From a virus, in IMG/VR virus record IMGVR_UViG_3300036820_000429, positions 1 through 27,123 of that record: a stretch of 27,123 nucleotides of DNA; one strand, 5' to 3'. Below are positions 2,479 to 23,003 of the stretch, piece by piece. Within the stretch, counting starts at the first letter, position 1. Each line of letters starts with the position of its first letter. The position numbers were made by a program, and so were the translations under genes. The notes under the pieces are model-generated. The model was given only the letters and a program-made list of their open reading frames with translations, was not told the DNA's origin and made no database searches.

Positions 2479-3072
2479 TCAACTTAACTCGTCCTCGGCG
2501 TCCAGCCGGTCCAGCAGCCGCTCGATCGCGGCCGCCTGGACCTCCCACGCCCGGACCCGCTGCGCCCGCCGCACCTGCAGCTGGCCCTTCAGGTCGCGCA
2601 TCCGGTCAGCCGTGGCCCGGCGCATCCGCGGCCCGGTCGTCACGGCCTGCTCGCGCCCCGGGTGCGCGGCCGCGAATGCGATCCCCCACGCGGCCGCCGT
2701 GTCGATGTCGCCGGGGATCTCGCAGAGCGCCGCCTCCACGTAGTGGCACTCCGCAAGGTCCCAGTCCTGCAGCTGCGTGCGGTCGGCGAGCCACCTGGCG
2801 TCCATCCGCTCCTTCAGCGAGTCCGGGATGCGGATGGCGAACGAGCCCCACTCCCCCGGCCTGGTGCGGGCGGAGGCCTCGGCGCGCCTCACCATCTCGC
2901 GGGCCGTCATGAGCCCCGAGCGGGCAGGTGCCGGCGCCGGGGATGCGGGAGGTGCCGGGGCTGGCGGCGGCGCGGCGGGGGCGCCCTCGGCCACGTGCAG
3001 CCCCTCGGGGTGCCGCACGAGTCCTGACGTGGCCGGGGGGACCTCCCGGCCGGGGCGGCCGGGGCGGCTCAC
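2479..3072 (-). CDS. Candidate ParA partner protein with a ribbon-helix-helix-like segment
   Basis: This gene starts with a GTG that overlaps the ParA stop codon (GTGA), giving 197 residues. After a Pro/Ala-rich linker (about 25-55), the segment SFAIRIPDSLKERMDARW could form the beta strand and first helix of a ribbon-helix-helix fold, with a second helix around DWDLAECHYVEAALCEI. The C-terminal 60 residues are strongly helical and basic. Small RHH proteins are common centromere-binding partners encoded immediately after ParA ATPases, so that role is inferred from position and this segment. No direct homology is recognised, and it could be an unrelated helical protein. Confidence 0.6.
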   Translation of the reverse strand: MSRPGRPGREVPPATSGLVRHPEGLHVAEGAPAAPPPAPAPPASPAPAPARSGLMTAREMVRRAEASARTRPGEWGSFAIRIPDSLKERMDARWLADRTQLQDWDLAECHYVEAALCEIPGDIDTAAAWGIAFAAAHPGREQAVTTGPRMRRATADRMRDLKGQLQVRRAQRVRAWEVQAAAIERLLDRLDAEDELS

Positions 3073-3854
3073 CGGACGGCCCCGAGGTAGCGGCCGGCGA
3101 GTTCGTCGAACAGCGCCATGACCTTCCGGCCGTCCTGGCCGTAGGCGTCGAGCGGCTGGCCGGCGTTGTTGGCCTCGTGGATCACGGTCCGCAGCGGGAT
3201 CGCCGGCTCCCAGACGGCCTCGCCGAGCGAGGCGGGCATGTTCTCCAGCCACCACCGGTGCTCGGTCAGCCGCAGGTCCACCTGGCAGCCGACGTAGCCG
3301 GTGACCCGGAGCCCGGGATTACCCAGGTCCGCCGCATAGGCGCCGGCGAAGTCCCGCAGCCGGGTTGCTGCCTCCACCGCGTCGAAGGCCGGGTTGACGA
3401 CGCACAGCACCCCGTCTGCCGCGGCCAGGACCATCTGGGTGAGATGGCCGAACCCCGGCTTGCAGTCGAGGATCGTGAAGTCGTAGCCGTCGTCGGCGCC
3501 GTCCAGGACCCTGGCCAGCCTCCGCCACCAGCCGGTGCTCCCCTCGGAGTCACGGTTGGTGAGATCGGTGCCCGACGGGACGATGCCGATGCGCGCTGCG
3601 TACGGCACATCCCAGCCGCAGCCGGCGACAGCGGCGGCGGCGCAGCCCGCGGCACCGTCGCGGAGCGCGTCGTTGATGGTGGGCGTGGATTCGCTCATGA
3701 TGGCGCGCAGCCGCCGTGTGGCGTTCGCCTGCGGGTCCATGTCCACAACCAGTACCCGGTGATTGCGACGTGCGAGGCTTGCGGTGAGGTTCACGGCGAC
3801 GGTGGTCTTTCCCGGGCCGCCCTTGTCGTTACCGACCGCTTCACGTCGTGCCAT
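3069..3854 (-). CDS. parA: ParA-family partition ATPase
   Basis: A 261-residue ParA/Soj-type P-loop ATPase. The deviant Walker A motif is NDKGGPGKTT near residues 9-18, with the signature lysine of the family. VLVVDMDPQANAT follows (Walker A-prime), then DFTILDCKPGFG (Walker B/switch region). ParA dimerises on ATP and binds DNA nonspecifically to move ParB-bound plasmid copies. I chose ATG 3854 because the family usually starts a few residues before the P-loop; a GTG one codon upstream has an AGG at better spacing. The ATG overlaps the TGA of a small upstream ORF by one base. An 8-bp tandem repeat lies about 290 bases upstream and is a candidate centromere or operator. Confidence 0.9.
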   Translation of the reverse strand: MARREAVGNDKGGPGKTTVAVNLTASLARRNHRVLVVDMDPQANATRRLRAIMSESTPTINDALRDGAAGCAAAAVAGCGWDVPYAARIGIVPSGTDLTNRDSEGSTGWWRRLARVLDGADDGYDFTILDCKPGFGHLTQMVLAAADGVLCVVNPAFDAVEAATRLRDFAGAYAADLGNPGLRVTGYVGCQVDLRLTEHRWWLENMPASLGEAVWEPAIPLRTVIHEANNAGQPLDAYGQDGRKVMALFDELAGRYLGAVR

Positions 3855-4063
3855 CACGTTACCTGCGCCCATGCGCACGATGTTCGGGGGGTGCTCATGG
3901 CCACGGATGCTAGACCGCAGGCGCGTGATTCCGCAACCCTGCGGAAATCGCGGGCTCGCCGTACGCCCAGCCGCCTGAGGATCGCCCGCTCTCGTCGCGG
4001 GCCCAGATTGCAGTCCGGCACGCAGAAGCGGTTCCGGGTGCCGTGAGTTCCTGGTTCCTGCAT
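3854..4063 (-). CDS. Small 69-residue ORF translationally coupled to parA
   Basis: ATG at 4063 follows AGGAG with an 8-base spacer, and the TGA stop shares a base with the parA ATG. The product is basic (about a quarter Arg), with RNRFCVPDCNLGPRR near the N-terminus containing two cysteines, and has no known domain. Its third-position GC is lower than in neighbouring genes, so it may be a recently formed gene or a leader that sets parA translation. GGTTCC hexamers crowd its first codons and its ribosome-binding site. If it is not a gene, this stretch is simply the parA leader. Confidence 0.4.
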   Translation of the reverse strand: MQEPGTHGTRNRFCVPDCNLGPRRERAILRRLGVRRARDFRRVAESRACGLASVAMSTPRTSCAWAQVT

Positions 4064-4069
4064 GGTTCC
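4030..4069. repeat. Three GGTTCC hexamers around the start of the parA-leader ORF
   Basis: GGTTCC occurs at 4030-4035, 4053-4058 and 4064-4069. On the minus strand the last two give CAGGAACC on either side of the ATG. These are the same hexamers that mass in three genes elsewhere in the window. Confidence 0.6.
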
Positions 4070-4142
4070 TGCTCCTGTAATAGTGTCCGGCTGTGTGAGC
4101 GTAAATGCCTCTGGAGTGCAAGGACGGGACGGGTTGGCGATC

Positions 4143-4174
4143 TGCAAGTGTGTAAGCGCGTAAGAGCGCAAGCG
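4143..4174. repeat. Four tandem 8-bp direct repeats, consensus YGYAAGNG
   Basis: Read on the plus strand, the array is tgcaagtg, tgtaagcg, cgtaagag, cgcaagcg, with no spacer. Positions 2 (G), 4-6 (AAG) and 8 (G) are invariant. Possible degenerate copies (cgtaaatg near 4100, tgcaagga near 4117) lie closer to parA. The array sits in the only sizeable noncoding stretch of the left arm, between the lysozyme-like gene and the parA leader. Families of 8-bp repeats serve as TraB-recognition sites in Streptomyces conjugative plasmids. FtsK/SpoIIIE gamma domains also read 8-mers (GAGAAGGG in Bacillus), which share AAG and the final G with this consensus. A parS-like centromere or repressor site is equally possible. 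Confidence 0.65.
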
Positions 4175-4184
4175 TCTCGGATGA

Positions 4185-4694
4185 TCAGCAGGTCGCGGAC
4201 AGAGTGCCGTCGTAGTGATTGCTCGCCCATGGACTGTCCATGATCGCGTCGCACACGGCCTGCGCCGAGTCGCCCGCGCGGAGGGCGTCGATGATGTTCC
4301 CGTAGTCACCATTGCGCAGTGTCTTCACGGTGTACCGCAGGCCCGTGGCGGGGTCCGGGAACGCCCACGCGCCGATCACCGGACGGCCCGGCCAGTCCGT
4401 GCCGGGGGGCGGGTTGACGTTCAGCGGATCGTAGCTTGCCTGATTCCCGAACCCGCCGCCCTCCCGCACCTCCCACTCATTGACCGCAGCGAGGTCGCAG
4501 GAGGTCAGCGGCAGGCTGTCTGCGGCGAGGAAGGCGGCCGCCCATCCCGGCCGGGTGAGCAGGTTGCTGTCGCCGGGGATCACGATGTCAGTCGTGGTAG
4601 CGGTCGCGGCACCGTGGTCGCTGGCGCCCTTGCCGTAGGCCGCCAGCATGGCGACGGCAACCGCGATAACGGCGCGCTTCTTGAGCTTGCTCAT
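4185..4694 (-). CDS. Secreted peptidoglycan-hydrolase-like protein
   Basis: A 169-residue protein with a signal peptide: basic SKLKKR, hydrophobic VIAVAVAMLAAY, then a polar stretch. The mature part shows WEVREGGG (74-81) and YDPLN (88-92), a GLRYTVKTLRNGDYGNI segment (118-134), and a terminal SPWASNHY. This pattern is seen in actinobacterial glucosaminidase/lysozyme-like domains, which also carry a WExxEGG..NPLN core. Likely role: local cutting of the cell wall during DNA transfer or lysis, acting outside the membrane. It overlaps the upstream gene by ATGA and is the last gene before the repeat-bearing gap. No catalytic assay data exist, and residue assignment is by pattern only. Confidence 0.65.
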   Translation of the reverse strand: MSKLKKRAVIAVAVAMLAAYGKGASDHGAATATTTDIVIPGDSNLLTRPGWAAAFLAADSLPLTSCDLAAVNEWEVREGGGFGNQASYDPLNVNPPPGTDWPGRPVIGAWAFPDPATGLRYTVKTLRNGDYGNIIDALRAGDSAQAVCDAIMDSPWASNHYDGTLSATC

Positions 4695-6077: not shown

Positions 6078-6437
6078 TCAGGTCGTGTAGATGAGCACGT
6101 CGGCGTAGTCGGCCAGGTACCGCGGCTCGGTGCCTGGCGGGACGAGGTCCGTGAGCAGGCAGAGTGCGTACCGCCGCAGCCACGCGTCCTCGTCGCCGTC
6201 AGCTTTCGACAGCCACCTCCTCAGGTGGCCCGCGTGCTCGGCCAGCTTGCGCAGCCTGTCGGCGTCGGCCCCGGAGAGCCGTGCCATCCGTGCCACGCAC
6301 GCGATCGCGCACACGCTGTCGGCAGTGCGCCTGTCCGGCCATGTCCGGCCGCGCGCGGAGCGGCGGTTCATGCCGGGCAGGGCCAGCCACCAGAACTCGG
6401 CGGGCCACGGGAAGGAATCGAGTGATAGTGCGCTCAC
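6078..6437 (-). CDS. Unknown cytoplasmic protein coupled to the FtsK-like gene
   Basis: 119 residues, starting at a GTG that overlaps the FtsK stop codon (GTGA). The sequence contains Trp-rich [14 protein letters not shown] near the start and a helical middle ([23 protein letters not shown]). The family is not recognised. Its coupling to the translocase suggests equal production and possible cooperation. Confidence 0.6.
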
Positions 6438-8563
6438 CGGGAAGCCTCCTCTGACTGCAGTGACAGGATCGTCTCGTCAAGATCTTCGGGCCGCACCAGC
6501 ACGTCGCGCGCCTGCGGGCCGTCGCTCGGCCCGACGATGCCGCGGCTTTCCAGCAGGTCCATCAGCCGGCCTGCCTTCGCGAACCCGACCCGGAGCTTGC
6601 GCTGCAGCATCGACGTCGAGCCGTGCTGGGTCGCGATGACCAGTTCCGCCGCTTCCAGGAGCAGCTCGAGGTCGTCGCCGATGCCCTCGTCGCGGGCCGC
6701 GGCAGCGTGCACGGGAAGGGCTGCGGCCGCGTGGCCTGCGGGAGGGAAGGCACCGGCCGCCGCAGGCGAGCCCTGCGCCTTCCAGTGCGCGACGATGTCC
6801 CGGATCTGCCTCTCTGACACGAAGGCGTTCTGCAGCCGGACCGGCTTGGACATGTCGGTCAGCAGCAGCAGAGCGTCGCCCTTGCCGGTCAGCTTCTCCG
6901 CGCCGCCCTGGTCCAGGATGACCCGGGAGTCGGTCAGCGATGAGGTGGAGAACGCGAGCCGGGACGGCACGTTGGCCTTGATCAGCCCGGTCACGACGTC
7001 CACGCTCGGGCGCTGGGTGGCCAGCACCAGGTGAATGCCGGCCGCCCGGGCCAGCTGGGCGATCCGCACGATTGTGTCCTCGACGTCGCGGGGCGCGACC
7101 ATCATCAGGTCAGCCAGCTCGTCGACGACCACCAGGAGATAGGGGTGCGGCCTGAGGATCCGCTGGCTGCCGGGCGGCGCCTTGAGGGCACCGGAGCGCA
7201 CCGCCGCGTTGAAGTCATCCACGTGCCGGAACCCGCCGGCGGCCAGGTCGTCGTAGCGCCGTTCCATCTCGCCCACGACCCAGTCCAGTGCCCCGGCGGC
7301 ATCCTTCGCATTGGTGATGATCGGCATGATCAGGTGCGGGATGCCGTCGTAGATGGTCAGCTCGACCCGCTTGGGGTCGATCAGGATCATCACGACCTCG
7401 TCGGGCGTGGCCCGGGTCAGGACCGACGTGATCAGCCCGTTCAGGCAGACCGACTTGCCCGACCCGGTGGCGCCCGCGATTATCACGTGCGGCATCGTCG
7501 CCGGGTTGACGACGATCGCATGGCCCTCGACGTCCTTGCCGAGCCCGACCACCATCGGGTGGCGGTCCCGGGCGGCCGCGTCGGACCTGAGCATGTCGCC
7601 GAGGCTGACGATCTCCCGGTCCTTGTTGGGGACTTCCACGCCGATCGCTGAGCGGCCGGGGATCGGGGAGACGATGCGCACGTCACTTCCGACCTCGTAC
7701 GCTATTCTCTTCGACAGGCTGGTAACCCGCTCGACCTTGGTCACCGGCCCGAGCTCGATCTCATACCTCGTCACGGCCGGGCCGCGGCAGTACCCCGTGA
7801 CCTGGGCGTCCACCTGGAACCGGCCGAGCATCTCCTGCAGGGCCCCCGCAATGCGGTTGTTCTCCTCGGTCTTGCTGTAGTGCACCGGGCCCGGCGGGAG
7901 CAGGTCCATGCTCGGCAGCACCCACCTGCGAGGCGCCGGCAAGCCGGCGGGGGGCGGGGCGGCCGGGGCGGGGTGTTCCGGGATGAGCACATCGAGGGCA
8001 GCGGATACCGCCGGTTCCGGCGAGACTCGCGCGTTGCCAGGAGGGGCCGGAGGCCATATCCGGCCGGAGAGCGGAACGCCATCCGGCTCGCTGACGGTCA
8101 GCGGCGGGGCGCCACGCTGGCCGCCCGGCGGAGCCTCGGCCACGACGCCGGCGGCGCGCGCGATGTCCGCGAGGCGCCGCCGGTGGGCGTTGTAGAACGC
8201 CGCCGGCAGCGCCGCCAGGATGTACACCGCCTGGATAATCCCGCGCGGGCCGCCGCCGAGGATTGTCGCCGCGAACCATGCCGACGCCAGGAATCCCGTG
8301 AGCACGATGGCATGCTTGCCCCCGGGGTCCTTCCGCACCGCTGCCGCCGCGATCGCCATCGCGGCCACCACGCCGATTACCGTCGCCGTGATACGGCCGT
8401 GCGGCTCCGGCTGGCGGTAGCCGATGACCGCGTACACATCCGCAGCGGCAGCCAGGACCAGCGGCCGGACCAGCCACGCATGCCCGGCACCTGGCGCCGG
8501 GGCGTGCTCTGGCTGGTCCGGCACCACGGGAGCGATCACCTCGGGCTCATGCCAGATGCCCAC
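6434..8563 (-). CDS. ftsK: FtsK/SpoIIIE-type DNA translocase
   Basis: A 709-residue motor that pumps double-stranded DNA. The N-terminus has about three to four hydrophobic segments between 31 and 124, then a Pro-rich linker (144-215). The alpha/beta motor follows: Walker A GATGSGKS at 364-371, DPKRVEL at 396-402, Walker [14 protein letters not shown] at 476-488, and ATQRPS at 515-520. The C-terminus (about 628-690) is a full winged-helix gamma domain ([20 protein letters not shown]), which in chromosomal FtsK/SpoIIIE reads 8-bp orienting sequences. Start is GTG with GGGGG upstream, 2 bases after the previous stop. Among membrane and wall-lysis genes, it is the likely DNA-transfer pump. A gamma domain this close to the chromosomal type is notable, since Streptomyces TraB proteins carry a more divergent one. 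Confidence 0.9.
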
Positions 8564-9048: not shown

Positions 9049-9645
9049 TTACAGGACCAGGACCGCTATCGCGATGGCGACCAGGATGAGCACCGCTCCC
9101 GCAATGCACTGGCCGGGAACTGATGCGCCCAGGGCCGACAGGCCATTCCCTGCGGTATTCAGCGCCCTCCCGGTGGTGTGGAGCTGGAATCTCGCGGCGC
9201 CCTCGTGGCTGTTCGCGTGGACGTGATGCTCGGCCAGCGTCATCGGCTGGTACTGGTACGCGCGGTGAAGCGGGTGGCCGGGCGTCTCCGCCAGGCGGAG
9301 CAGTTCCGCCCCGGCCCCGCGGGCCGCCTTCAGAACCAGCCGGGCGATGCAGCGCAGAACCGGGCCGAGGATCTCCGGGGAACCGGCCGCGTCCCGGTTC
9401 TGGTTCTCGTCGGCCCCCGGTTCCGGAACCAGTCCGGTTCCGGGTTCCGGAGTGGCATCGGGACCGGAGGCGTTCTGGCGGTACGGCCATCCCGGGTTCT
9501 GGTTCCCGGCACCATCGAGCACCGTCATCCATGGCGGCCTCTGGGCCGACCGGTTCCGCGAACCAGGGTCCTGGGCCGGTGCCGCAGAACCATCGGTTCC
9601 GGGTTCCGGTTCCGCGTCCGGGTCATACCTGCGCACGAGCCTCAT
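9049..9645 (-). CDS. Low-complexity protein with a C-terminal membrane anchor
   Basis: 198 residues from ATG 9645 with GGAGGA upstream. The first half is a disordered linker built from Glu-Pro, Asn-Gln and Gly-Thr runs (for example DAEPEPGTDGSA and TPEPGTGLVPEPG), all encoded by GGAACC/GGTTCC hexamers in different frames. The middle (about 100-170) is helical with a His-rich stretch. The last 19 residues form a hydrophobic tail suggestive of a membrane anchor. No family is recognised. It overlaps the preceding gene by ATGA. The linker composition appears driven by the DNA repeat rather than by the peptide. Confidence 0.6.
   Translation of the reverse strand: MRLVRRYDPDAEPEPGTDGSAAPAQDPGSRNRSAQRPPWMTVLDGAGNQNPGWPYRQNASGPDATPEPGTGLVPEPGADENQNRDAAGSPEILGPVLRCIARLVLKAARGAGAELLRLAETPGHPLHRAYQYQPMTLAEHHVHANSHEGAARFQLHTTGRALNTAGNGLSALGASVPGQCIAGAVLILVAIAIAVLVL
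9379..9613. repeat. GGTTCC/GGAACC hexamer cluster inside a coding region
   Basis: Ten exact copies (eight GGTTCC, two GGAACC) occur in 235 bases, plus near-matches GGTTCT/AGAACC. They lie in the linker-coding half of the membrane-anchored protein gene and are read in all three frames. Spacing is irregular. Confidence 0.8.
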
Positions 9646-10057: not shown

Positions 10058-11128
10058 TCAGACCGCGACTTCCGCGGCGGGGGCCTGGGTCAGCCACTGG
10101 GTCAGCTTCAGGGCCTCGCACGCCACGGCCTTGGACTTGCCGAGTTCCTTGGCCAGCTGGGCTGCCGTCGGGCGCCTGCCGTGAACGGCAAGCCAGGTCG
10201 CGACGACTTCCTCCGCCCGGGGCTTCAGCTCCAGCGCGACGTCCCGGGGGCCGCGCGCCGGGCCGCGCCTGCGGGCAGCCGGTTCCGCCGACTCCCCTGT
10301 TCCGAGTTCCGGGTTCTGGTCCGCGACCGGCTCCGGTTCCGACAAGGGAGGCTGTGCTGGTTCTGGTTCCGGGATCCGCCCTGGTTCCAGTTCCGGTTCC
10401 GGCATTGCCGGGGCCTCGGTTCCGGAACCGGAACCAGCACCATTGCGGTTCTGGTTCCGATCGGAAGCCGGTTCTGGAACTAGCGCTGGTTCCAGTTCCC
10501 GGAGCGGCATAGCCGGAACTGCGACCGGTTCCGGAACCACCCCGGCATCCGGCCGGTTCTGGTTCCCGGTTCTGGTTCCGACTGCGACGATCGCTGCCGA
10601 CGGGTTCTGCTCGCCGATCCACGTGGCCCACCGCATGGCGCGGAAACTGCCGAGCGGATGCCAGAACCACCTAGTTGCCCCCAGCTTTACCGCGCGGCCC
10701 TCGAGGAGCCCGCGTTCCATGAAAAGATCGCGGCTGACACGGCGGCTGAACATCGACCACAGCCACGGCGACAATGCCGACAGCAGCCCCAGGCTCACGG
10801 CCTTCGCTGTCGGGTGCCAGTGGACTGAGAAGTGGCTGTAATTGAGCGCTCCCACTACCGCGCCGAGCGCATAGCTTGCCAGCTTCGTGCGCAGTGCGGA
10901 GTCGTTGTTCTTCTGTGACTGGTGCGCATGGGCGGCGACAGTCACCGCGATTGACTCGATCGTCGCCGCGTAAAGGATGTCGCCGGGCTTGTCCCACCCG
11001 AAATGCTCGGACGCGTAGCCGTACTGGCCGATGAACGCGACCGTATTCACCAGAAGCGATGAGGCCGCGAACGAGCACGTCGCGATACTGATCTTCCGGA
11101 GATCCACATCCGGCAGCCGGACGCTCAT
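10058..11128 (-). CDS. DUF2637-like membrane protein with a C-terminal helix-turn-helix
   Basis: 356 residues. The N-terminal 130 resemble the DUF2637 membrane family found on Streptomyces plasmids and integrative elements: hydrophobic helices at about 14-34, 51-68, 84-100 and 108-127, with a conserved-looking NYSHF between them. A long disordered section (about 180-290) consists of EPEPEP, NQNR and GSGSGT runs encoded by GGTTCC hexamers. The last 55 residues hold a helix-turn-helix (RRPTAAQLAKELGKSKAVACEALK). Start is ATG 11128 with GGGGAGG upstream, overlapping the previous stop by ATGA. Likely a spread/transfer membrane protein that also touches DNA. The family call is by pattern. Confidence 0.7.
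   Translation of the reverse strand: MSVRLPDVDLRKISIATCSFAASSLLVNTVAFIGQYGYASEHFGWDKPGDILYAATIESIAVTVAAHAHQSQKNNDSALRTKLASYALGAVVGALNYSHFSVHWHPTAKAVSLGLLSALSPWLWSMFSRRVSRDLFMERGLLEGRAVKLGATRWFWHPLGSFRAMRWATWIGEQNPSAAIVAVGTRTGNQNRPDAGVVPEPVAVPAMPLRELEPALVPEPASDRNQNRNGAGSGSGTEAPAMPEPELEPGRIPEPEPAQPPLSEPEPVADQNPELGTGESAEPAARRRGPARGPRDVALELKPRAEEVVATWLAVHGRRPTAAQLAKELGKSKAVACEALKLTQWLTQAPAAEVAV
10281..10579. repeat. Dense GGTTCC/GGAACC hexamer cluster inside a coding region
   Basis: Fourteen exact copies (eleven GGTTCC, three GGAACC) occur in 299 bases, with several CCGGTTCCGG and CCGGAACCGG cores and near-matches GGTTCT. All lie in the disordered linker of the DUF2637-like gene and are translated in all three frames (Glu-Pro, Asn-Gln/Arg, Gly-Ser/Thr). 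Confidence 0.85.
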
Positions 11129-21401: not shown

Positions 21402-22051
21402 CCGCCATGGAGGCCGTCTCTGATGTCGCCCTGAAGCACGCCTGGGGATTCGACGCCGGCGACACCGGCCGCCAGATAATCCTGGTCTCCGTCGCGCTGT
21501 TCGCCAACGAGGACGGGACCGGTCGGTACGACATGCCGGACGGGCTGCTGGCCGATAAATGCAACATGCCCATGCCGCGCCTGAGGCGCGACCTCCGGTG
21601 GCTGCTGGAAAACGGCTACCTCCGCAGGCGGAGCGCAGATTCCCATGTCTACGACATCCCTCTGAGTGAATCTTCGCGGCAGGAGTGGCGGCAAGCCGCC
21701 GCCGGGCCGGACGGGCCACCTGTGCGGTACCGGCCGAACGGTCCGGATGGTTCATGGGTCGGCGGCCATCCCTCTAGGCCGGGCTGGGAGGCGGCGCCGA
21801 CGCCACAGCCCGGGGACTATGTCGTCTACTTTCTTTTCGACCACGCGGGCGATATCTGCTATGTCGGGAAATCAAAGAACTTCCGCAGCAGGGTCGGCGA
21901 CCATGCCCGCGACAAGACCTTCGAAAGCTGGCTGGCGCTACCCGTTTCCGGTCAGCAAGAAGCCTTTGCCTTTGAAACACGGTATCGCCACGAATATCGT
22001 CCGTACCTGAACATTGCGGGCATGAAGCCGACGGGGGAGGCGGATGAGTGA
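21398..22051 (+). CDS. Fusion of a winged-helix domain and a GIY-YIG nuclease domain
   Basis: 217 residues. The first 90 form a winged helix of the phage replication-initiator type (QIILVSVALFANEDGTGRYD, LRRDLRWLLENGYLRRR). After a Pro/Gly linker (about 100-138), residues 141-205 form a GIY-YIG core: YVVYFL (141-146), the CYVGKS strand (154-159), NFRSRVGDHA with catalytic-type Arg165, and a FETRYRHEYRPYLN helix containing a Glu at 193. The enzyme would nick or cut DNA at sites chosen by the winged helix. It immediately precedes a second winged-helix replication protein, which fits origin nicking or replication restart. The domain pair is unusual to me; novelty is unverified. Confidence 0.7.
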   Translation: MTAMEAVSDVALKHAWGFDAGDTGRQIILVSVALFANEDGTGRYDMPDGLLADKCNMPMPRLRRDLRWLLENGYLRRRSADSHVYDIPLSESSRQEWRQAAAGPDGPPVRYRPNGPDGSWVGGHPSRPGWEAAPTPQPGDYVVYFLFDHAGDICYVGKSKNFRSRVGDHARDKTFESWLALPVSGQQEAFAFETRYRHEYRPYLNIAGMKPTGEADE

Positions 22052-23003
22052 AGGCCTGCGCAAACGGAGGCGACCGTACCTCAACGTTCCCAGTGCGGCC
22101 GTCAATGACCGCCGTCTGTCCTATAAAGCCCGCGGCATTCATCACTACCTCCTGGACAAGCCCGCGGGATGGGACGTGAGATCCCTTGCCATCGCCGGTG
22201 ACAGCGACGCTGACGGCAAGGATTCCGTTCAGGCGGGGCTTAGGGAGCTTGCGCGGCTGGGCTACTACCGGATCGAGCGCCGACGCCTCCGGGACGGGCG
22301 CCTGCTCACGGGCACGGCTGTTTCCGAGTATCCGGATCCGGTATGGGCCGACCAGTATGCCGAGCATGAGGGGCCGGTCGACTGTGTTCAGCAGATGGAC
22401 GGGACGTTCCGCGTGCGGCGCAAGGACGGCACTCTCGTACCCGACGGGTTCGAGGACGATGAGGATCCATTCGACCCAAATGGCGGTGTTTGTGCAGGTC
22501 AGGCCGGAACCGGGTTTCCCGGCACCGGGCCAGCCGGTTCCGGTGCAGCCGGTTCCGGCCAAACCGGTGCCGGTCCAGCCGGAACCGGAAAACCCCGCGC
22601 CTCTACCAATACAGAGGAACCACTACGGGAACCTCCGGTTCCCTCGGGAGGTTCCGCGAGATCCGACGTCGAACGGCTCTGCGACCACCTCGCTGGCCTG
22701 ATCGAAGCCAACGGGTCCAGGCGGCCGACCGTCACGAAGAAGTGGCGCGATGCATGCCGCCTCCTGCTAGATGCCGATGGAAGGTCCGAGGAGCAGATCC
22801 GGAAAGCCATCGACTGGTGCCAGGCCGATGAGTTCTGGCGCGCGAACGTTATGTCGATGCCAACCCTGCGAGAGAAATACGACATGCTCCGCCTGAGGGC
22901 ACAGGCAAAGCGGAACGGCGACGCCAATGGACGCAATCAATCCCCCCGAGTGGACTATCCCGATGAGGAGTACGGCAGTGGCTTCACCCCCCGATCCGCA
23001 TGA
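22044..23003 (+). CDS. Winged-helix replication protein (replisome-organiser-like)
   Basis: 319 residues with GGGGGAGG before the ATG. The N-terminal 90 residues carry a winged helix (YLNVPSAAVNDRRLSYKARG, DSVQAGLRELARLGYYRIER), a form common in actinophage replication initiators. A Gly-Ser-Thr-rich linker (about 150-190) is encoded by GGAACC hexamers. The C-terminal region (KKWRDACRLLLDADGRSEEQ, CQADEFWRANVMSMPTLREK) resembles the C-terminal tail of phage replication proteins that recruit the helicase loader. It precedes a DnaC-like loader and the DnaB helicase, so it is likely the origin-binding protein. Confidence 0.75.
   Translation: MSEGLRKRRRPYLNVPSAAVNDRRLSYKARGIHHYLLDKPAGWDVRSLAIAGDSDADGKDSVQAGLRELARLGYYRIERRRLRDGRLLTGTAVSEYPDPVWADQYAEHEGPVDCVQQMDGTFRVRRKDGTLVPDGFEDDEDPFDPNGGVCAGQAGTGFPGTGPAGSGAAGSGQTGAGPAGTGKPRASTNTEEPLREPPVPSGGSARSDVERLCDHLAGLIEANGSRRPTVTKKWRDACRLLLDADGRSEEQIRKAIDWCQADEFWRANVMSMPTLREKYDMLRLRAQAKRNGDANGRNQSPRVDYPDEEYGSGFTPRSA
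22506..22655. repeat. GGTTCC/GGAACC hexamer cluster in the replication-protein linker
   Basis: Eight exact copies (four of each orientation) occur in 150 bases, several within CCGGTTCCGG or CCGGAACCGG cores. They encode Gly-Ser-Gly-Thr and Pro-rich residues between the two domains of the winged-helix replication protein. It is the same hexamer as in the left-arm genes but on the opposite coding strand. Confidence 0.8.

Follow-up and report, generated by a model that had tools for sequence, protein, structure and literature searches.

Which protein reads a short run of tandem 8-mers that stands beside the parA gene of a plasmid-like element, and what does the run do there? The window analysed here is an entire virus-collection record of 27,123 bp and about 70% GC, and its genes are those of a plasmid-like element of actinobacteria: we see genes for ParA, a ParB_N-like protein, FtsK, a GntR/UTRA regulator, a DUF3799 nuclease, an IstB-like ATPase and a DnaB helicase. 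A 15-bp tandem repeat (CCGGTACCGGTCCAG, 4.7 copies, 22519-22588) lies within ORF 22044-23003, before the IstB/DnaC-like gene. A preliminary description of the array preferred a transfer site of FtsK/TraB type and kept a parS role for the ParA/ParB proteins as its alternative. That alternative is the better supported half. We consider the array to be probably the four-unit parS of a type-I plasmid partition locus with an RHH ParB (type Ib in the older naming). In the portion of a recent survey drawn on here, 31,192 plasmids (52.1%) are counted as having no partition system or no identified one (PMC13245405).

Table 1. Features of the window that bear on the function of the array.
Feature	Position	Strand	Basis or remark
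Candidate parS, four contiguous 8-bp direct repeats	4143..4174	+	sequence, shuffles
Isolated extra unit TGCAAGGA	4117..4124	+	26 bp from array
Degenerate unit CGTAAATG, one core mismatch	4100..4107	+	post hoc
Candidate parA promoter, TTGCGG-18-TAGCAT	3907..3945	-	by eye; putative
parA, 261-aa Walker ATPase	3069..3854	-	Pfam AAA_31, E 2.4e-29
parB candidate P0001, 197 aa	2479..3072	-	directly behind parA
ftsK, alpha + motor + gamma domains	6434-8563		array ~2.3 kb downstream of ftsK

A short array of 8-bp units upstream of parA

The four units read, in order, TGCAAGTG TGTAAGCG CGTAAGAG CGCAAGCG, with the consensus YGYAAGNG, or CNCTTRCR on the minus strand, which is the sense of parA. Both their contiguity and the count of five invariant columns in eight (G2, A4, A5, G6 and G8) are exactly as first described, and Y1 and Y3 are two-state. 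The array has the top period-8 score of the whole window, a score that no Markov shuffle equaled, whether the whole window was shuffled (0 of 200; periods 5, 7, 8, 10 and 11) or the surrounding gap alone (0 of 2,000; periods 5-12). A second, stricter, lag-based statistic gave only p = 0.02, and the array is absent from the output of Tandem Repeats Finder at a minimum score of 30, so we regard it as real but short.

A nonfunctional minisatellite or a product of chance would agree with the low copy number and with the p value of the stricter test, and YGYAAGNG satellites with near-perfect copies exist in unrelated viral contigs. A pattern search of viral contigs for three units returned 17 stretches, very different in GC and context and mostly near-perfect satellites; the only one whose contig matches any window protein is L077 (DnaB, 31%). 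Against this explanation stand the two sets of shuffles and the place of the array beside parA, at which 8-bp arrays are found repeatedly, and we hold it to be very unlikely.

The array sits in a 330-bp gap (3855-4184), 289-320 bp upstream of parA and 10 bp from the end of an ORF (4185-4694) whose earlier label of wall hydrolase finds no support in Pfam. The gap has no coding pattern by codon-position GC, which speaks against a coding repeat. A structured RNA or a terminator is disfavored too: there is no Rfam match, the fold is no better than that of shuffles (z 0.87), and a terminator search found none at the array. In addition, a search for DNA homologues of the gap among plasmids and phages found none. 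When the isolated extra unit is counted, YGYAAG occurs at 5 sites in the gap against 0.7 expected. Tandem stretches rich in GGTTCC/GGAACC occur both inside and outside genes of the window (4030-4072, 9417-9450, 9595-9623, 10383-10402 and 10553-10579).

The candidate parA promoter is overlapped by CGCAGG (3916), CGCAAC (3932) and an inverted CGCAGG (3938), and these CGCA-type sites are a possible ParB operator; a promoter scan reported no promoter, this candidate included. RHH centromere proteins are described as doubling as repressors (PMC5016525, in the part considered here), and with a presumed promoter and more YGYA-type sites in the same gap the array itself could be just an operator, bound by ParB or by a different regulator, the GntR protein for instance, with no role as a centromere. 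The array is well away from the presumed promoter, however, at about 290 bp from parA, and contiguous 8-bp units are a better fit for several dimers bound side by side than for a single operator. We therefore think a purely regulatory role unlikely.

parA and the candidate parB behind it

The window's ParA is without an N-terminal HTH extension and carries KGGPGKTT near its N-terminus; the start of the gene was set through alignment to plasmid ParAs. Its stop overlaps the start of the next gene by 4 bp (GTGA, 3069-3072). The product of that gene, P0001, has a Pro/Ala-rich N-terminus, an RHH-like core at about residues 75-118 and a C-terminal extension. Searched alone, P0001 matched nothing in Pfam and nothing meaningful in the PDB, and a search of viral contigs gave no relatives. 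In plasmids, tblastn found 10 records, all of them actinobacterial and aligned within residues 55-125. Six were inspected: in all 5 that are annotated the match falls within the gene that follows a ParA, and in the sixth, unannotated record tblastn places a ParA at the corresponding position.

With relatives from whole genomes, the core of the family reads approximately W-x-S-[YF]-x-x-R-[LI]-x-x-x-L-x-x-R-L ... A-x-x-H-Y-x-x-A-A-L, which looks like the strand-helix-helix of RHH proteins. A profile of 12 such cores matched, in hhalign, a profile of short ParBs, plainly of RHH type, from the same ParA clade (E 4.1e-5, probability 70%); the core profile alone matched no solved chain. Single-sequence models of P0001, of low confidence (mean pLDDT 51.2 and 61.8), place helices at about residues 84-100 and 106-117 after an extended stretch. 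On the strength of this pattern, one profile-profile match and these low-confidence models, we describe P0001 as RHH-like.

For the parS role that the preliminary description kept as its alternative, the reader is likely to be the RHH-like ParB behind parA and not the two ParB_N/DUF6551-like proteins farther along. The product of 972-1811 does have a weak ParB_N match (E 2.2e-4), and its gene runs in the same direction behind parA-parB. That match is below the curated cut-off, and the gene does not adjoin parA. Moreover, for the HTH-type ParBs of the Streptomyces plasmids SCP1 and SCP2 the sites are inverted repeats of 13-19 bp rather than tandem 8-mers, as far as the portions of the two sources used here go (PMC13245405, PMC12260392). 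A site for this protein or for its neighbor (83-967) is the explanation to which we give the least credence.

FtsK as a possible reader

TraB reads 8-bp sites, and the FtsK of the element carries a gamma domain, as first described (Pfam E 4.6e-22). GGGNAGGG, a KOPS-like motif, occurs in the window 8 times on the plus strand (853, 6375, 6713, 12196, 13342, 13366, 13969 and 15609) and once on the minus strand (14736). A clt- or KOPS-like transfer or translocation site read by the gamma domain would suit the position of the array downstream of ftsK, and among 29 FtsK-related contigs there are 5 with a period-8 array at a distance of 0.6-2.9 kb from ftsK, in 4 of the 5 on its downstream side.

The sequences of these arrays speak against such a site. 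The window, L004, L006 and L014 have near-identical reading segments in the gamma domain, with that of L023 similar, whereas the arrays of these four contigs are unlike (ATGCGCAT-, GTRYACGC-, CGCACACC- and CACGGGCA-like), and a conserved gamma segment does not fit unlike sites. Nor does a search over the whole element, as proposed in the preliminary description, favor such a site: YGYAAGNG occurs 13 times in the window against 11.5 expected, a chance level, and the copies outside the array (6 on the plus strand, 3 on the minus strand) show no marked strand bias. The transfer site that was first preferred is thus improbable. The arrays near ftsK (L004:12085-12138, L006:12802-12836, L014:13721-13753, L021:7449-8666 and L023:14423-14469) differ in their units, and ParA queries found no ParA near them in these five viral contigs; they may serve a different type of ParA as its parS, or they may be true sites of transfer.

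Period-8 arrays beside related parA genes

Of the ParA loci gathered in plasmids, viral contigs and whole genomes, 98 were sorted by tblastn score. The plasmid-type set comprises 34 loci (E below 1e-34) after removal, before counting, of L002 and L180, apparent duplicates of L178 and L179. The control comprises 62 chromosomal Soj-type loci, those within set limits of length and E value from a ParA scan of genome contigs whose matches were mostly of this type. Arrays were sought by self-alignment at a fixed lag, compared with Markov shuffles, within 500 bp upstream and 800 bp downstream of parA. One plasmid-type locus (L258) has no upstream sequence and one control no downstream sequence, leaving 33 and 61 for the respective counts.

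Upstream of parA, period-8 arrays were found in 14 of 33 plasmid-type loci versus 1 of 62 controls (11 versus 1 in an earlier run with other shuffles), leaving 19 plasmid-type loci with none on that side; downstream, the counts were 16 of 34 versus 0 of 61. Altogether 21 of the 34 plasmid-type loci have such an array on one side or the other. Among other periods in these loci, 7 and 10 gave 0 and 11 gave 2 and 0. The upstream arrays of the relatives lie mostly at -40 to -150 from parA, and that of the window is farther out than most. The exact 4-bp overlap of parA with the next gene recurs in 23 of 34 plasmid-type loci, and many of the genes behind parA share an N-terminal motif like RPGxSSxLxPxVEPI.

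The units vary from plasmid to plasmid: CGTGCCAG in L262, GCTGGCTA in L088, GAGTCCCG in L084 and GTGCACAC in L257, for example, while in two Micrococcales plasmids, L274 and L278, the period is 9 rather than 8. In some loci 8-bp arrays run on into the parB coding sequence (the parB of L256; L084:4357-4415; L175:3915-3977). The L256 ParB has 8-residue repeats, as expected from three 8-bp units, so that a likely centromere is here written into the linker of a protein that may itself bind it. AT-rich 9-bp arrays (TAAACGNTA-like) occur upstream of chromosomal parA-like genes in five controls (L135, L138, L144, L145 and L158), relatives of Telluria, Janthinobacterium and Massilia.

Which kind of protein works with this ParA clade is indicated by its ParBs. 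A profile built from the ParBs of the Micrococcales loci L272, L274 and L278 hits the solved structure 3no7, the ParB of pCXC100 (E 3.3e-9), and short ParBs of the clade match the RHH proteins 2kel (E 6.6e-8) and ParG (1p94, E 0.006). These matches indicate that RHH centromere proteins are the partners of the window's ParA clade. Hexamers overrepresented upstream of parA are also shared within ParB subfamilies (0.459) far more than between them (0.055; permutation p 0.0005), a result obtained after dropping pairs with DNA-similar upstream regions that holds before dropping as well. This test used 29 loci sorted by eye, namely 24 of the 34 plasmid-type loci together with L089, L091, L092, L093 and L094; L090 was omitted as near-identical to L091, and L176, L178, L179, L257, L258, L260, L261, L265, L267 and L273 fell outside the tested groups. 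The short RHH subfamily, with GCTGGC, shares its words most strongly and the window's ParB family weakly, and the upstream words of the window itself are not shared with its own family above background (own family versus others, 0.43 and 0.33 for 5-mers, 0.14 and 0.14 for 6-mers).

The window's ParB family and a possible 4-bp register

A Nonomuraea locus (L092/L281) has a ParB of the same family as P0001, at 33% identity, and it carries GTCGCAGG/GTCGTACG units at period 8 upstream of its parA, about 15 of them. Rotated to CGYASGGT, this unit resembles YGYAAGNG at six positions, a likeness that we treat as a lead and not a test. The close ParB relatives L264 and L266 have 12-bp spacing instead of 8-bp: GTTCGCAAAACG recurs at period 12 in L266/L280, and TCGCACA, located by eye, recurs at 12-, 20- and 12-bp steps in L264/L282.

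GCAACG-type units at 12-bp steps are found in the plasmids L089, L090, L091 and L093, and in L089, L090, L091, L093 and L094, which are Streptomyces and Streptantibioticus plasmids with the P0001-type ParB family, self-matches are in excess at each lag divisible by 4 from 4 through 32 bp (z up to 10.9), other lags being mostly negative or small. Upstream of parA this phasing extends for as much as about 1 kb, and in the titles and abstract beginnings of open-licence papers we found no description of it. It is possible, and we put it forward tentatively as a reading that we rather doubt, that the array is one of a family of centromeres in actinobacteria with a 4-bp register, in which one ParB family (L264, L266, L092, L089-L094) goes with site spacings of 8, 12, 16 or 20 bp and a recurring YGYA-type core. 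If such a register is real, one ParB fold would read a flexible grammar in fours, of which the window would be the shortest case. The phasing in Streptomyces plasmids makes it testable how RHH-like proteins count along DNA.

A probable partition centromere

The centromere reading is favored by several lines of evidence taken together: an array that exceeds chance, the 4-bp overlap between parA and an RHH-like gene, the plasmid matches of P0001 in genes that follow a ParA, the period-8 arrays beside related parA genes, the L092/L281 array, the sharing of hexamers within ParB subfamilies, the RHH matches within the ParA clade, and the positive control of mycobacteriophage RedRock described below. 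Its weak points are that there are only four copies, that P0001 matches no known RHH family, and that the window's upstream words show no link to its ParB family above background. The distance of the array from parA, the 12-bp spacing in L264 and L266, the 19 plasmid-type loci with no array upstream and the period-8 arrays near ftsK in contigs where the queries gave no ParA also count against it.

In such a centromere, dimers of P0001 would bind the 8-bp units side by side. By analogy with known systems, the bound protein would form a nucleoprotein patch that stimulates the ATPase of ParA, and ParA would move the patch over the nucleoid and so bring the plasmid into both daughter cells. P0001 would probably also repress parA through the related sites at its promoter. 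More generally, an 8-bp tandem array beside a parA of plasmid type, with a small RHH-like gene overlapping that parA, offers a rule by which candidate centromeres of actinobacterial plasmids are found from sequence, and it suggests partners for incompatibility tests.

Comparison with known partition systems

The ParB of mycobacteriophage RedRock is reported to bind arrays built of an 8-bp motif, which adjoin parA (PMC7157519, in the part used here). In the RedRock locus, which served as positive control, Tandem Repeats Finder shows 8-bp arrays on both sides of parAB, with lag-8 z values of 5.1 upstream and 4.6 downstream, the same kind of signal as in the plasmid-type loci. A directly repeated 8-bp centromere is thus already known in actinobacteria, and what appears to be new beside this known kind is the window's locus, the ParB family of that locus and the wide occurrence of 8-bp arrays among plasmids of actinobacteria; we found no description of these in the titles and abstract beginnings of open-licence papers. 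RedRock (cluster A) resembles the window in having a small ParB gene behind parA, whose product looks RHH-like in sequence, and 8-bp direct repeats, in RedRock its parS, near parA. It differs in its 185-aa ParA, which is 50% identical to that of the window (261 aa) over only 40 residues and is not closely related to it (E 6e-8 one-to-one), and in its two arrays of eight copies each (unit TCGAGTAG) flanking parAB, where the window has one array of four copies and no 8-bp array downstream of parA.

The direct repeats of the Leifsonia plasmid pCXC100 are 9 nt long. Its par locus, of type Ib, is described as having direct repeats only (PMC5016525, in part), as does the window, and ParBs of the pCXC100 type occur within the window's ParA clade (L272, L274 and L278). 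The period of 9 sets pCXC100 apart, as does a ParB of another subfamily with no profile link to P0001. In the TP228 ParFG-parH system of an Escherichia coli plasmid, an RHH centromere protein binds an array of short boxes, which the portion of the source used here gives as tetramers (PMC7308502). The likeness lies in the short ParB relatives within the window's ParA clade that match ParG; the degenerate tetramer boxes with AT-rich spacers are unlike the window. In the delta-omega par system of the Streptococcus plasmid pSM19035, each of the contiguous 7-bp repeats is read by one dimer, and full activation of its ParA is stated to need a minimum of four contiguous repeats (PMC9499535, in part). 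Its WATCACW units stand in both orientations at six sites, in contrast to the 8-bp direct repeats of the window, but that minimum of four is the copy number of the window's array.
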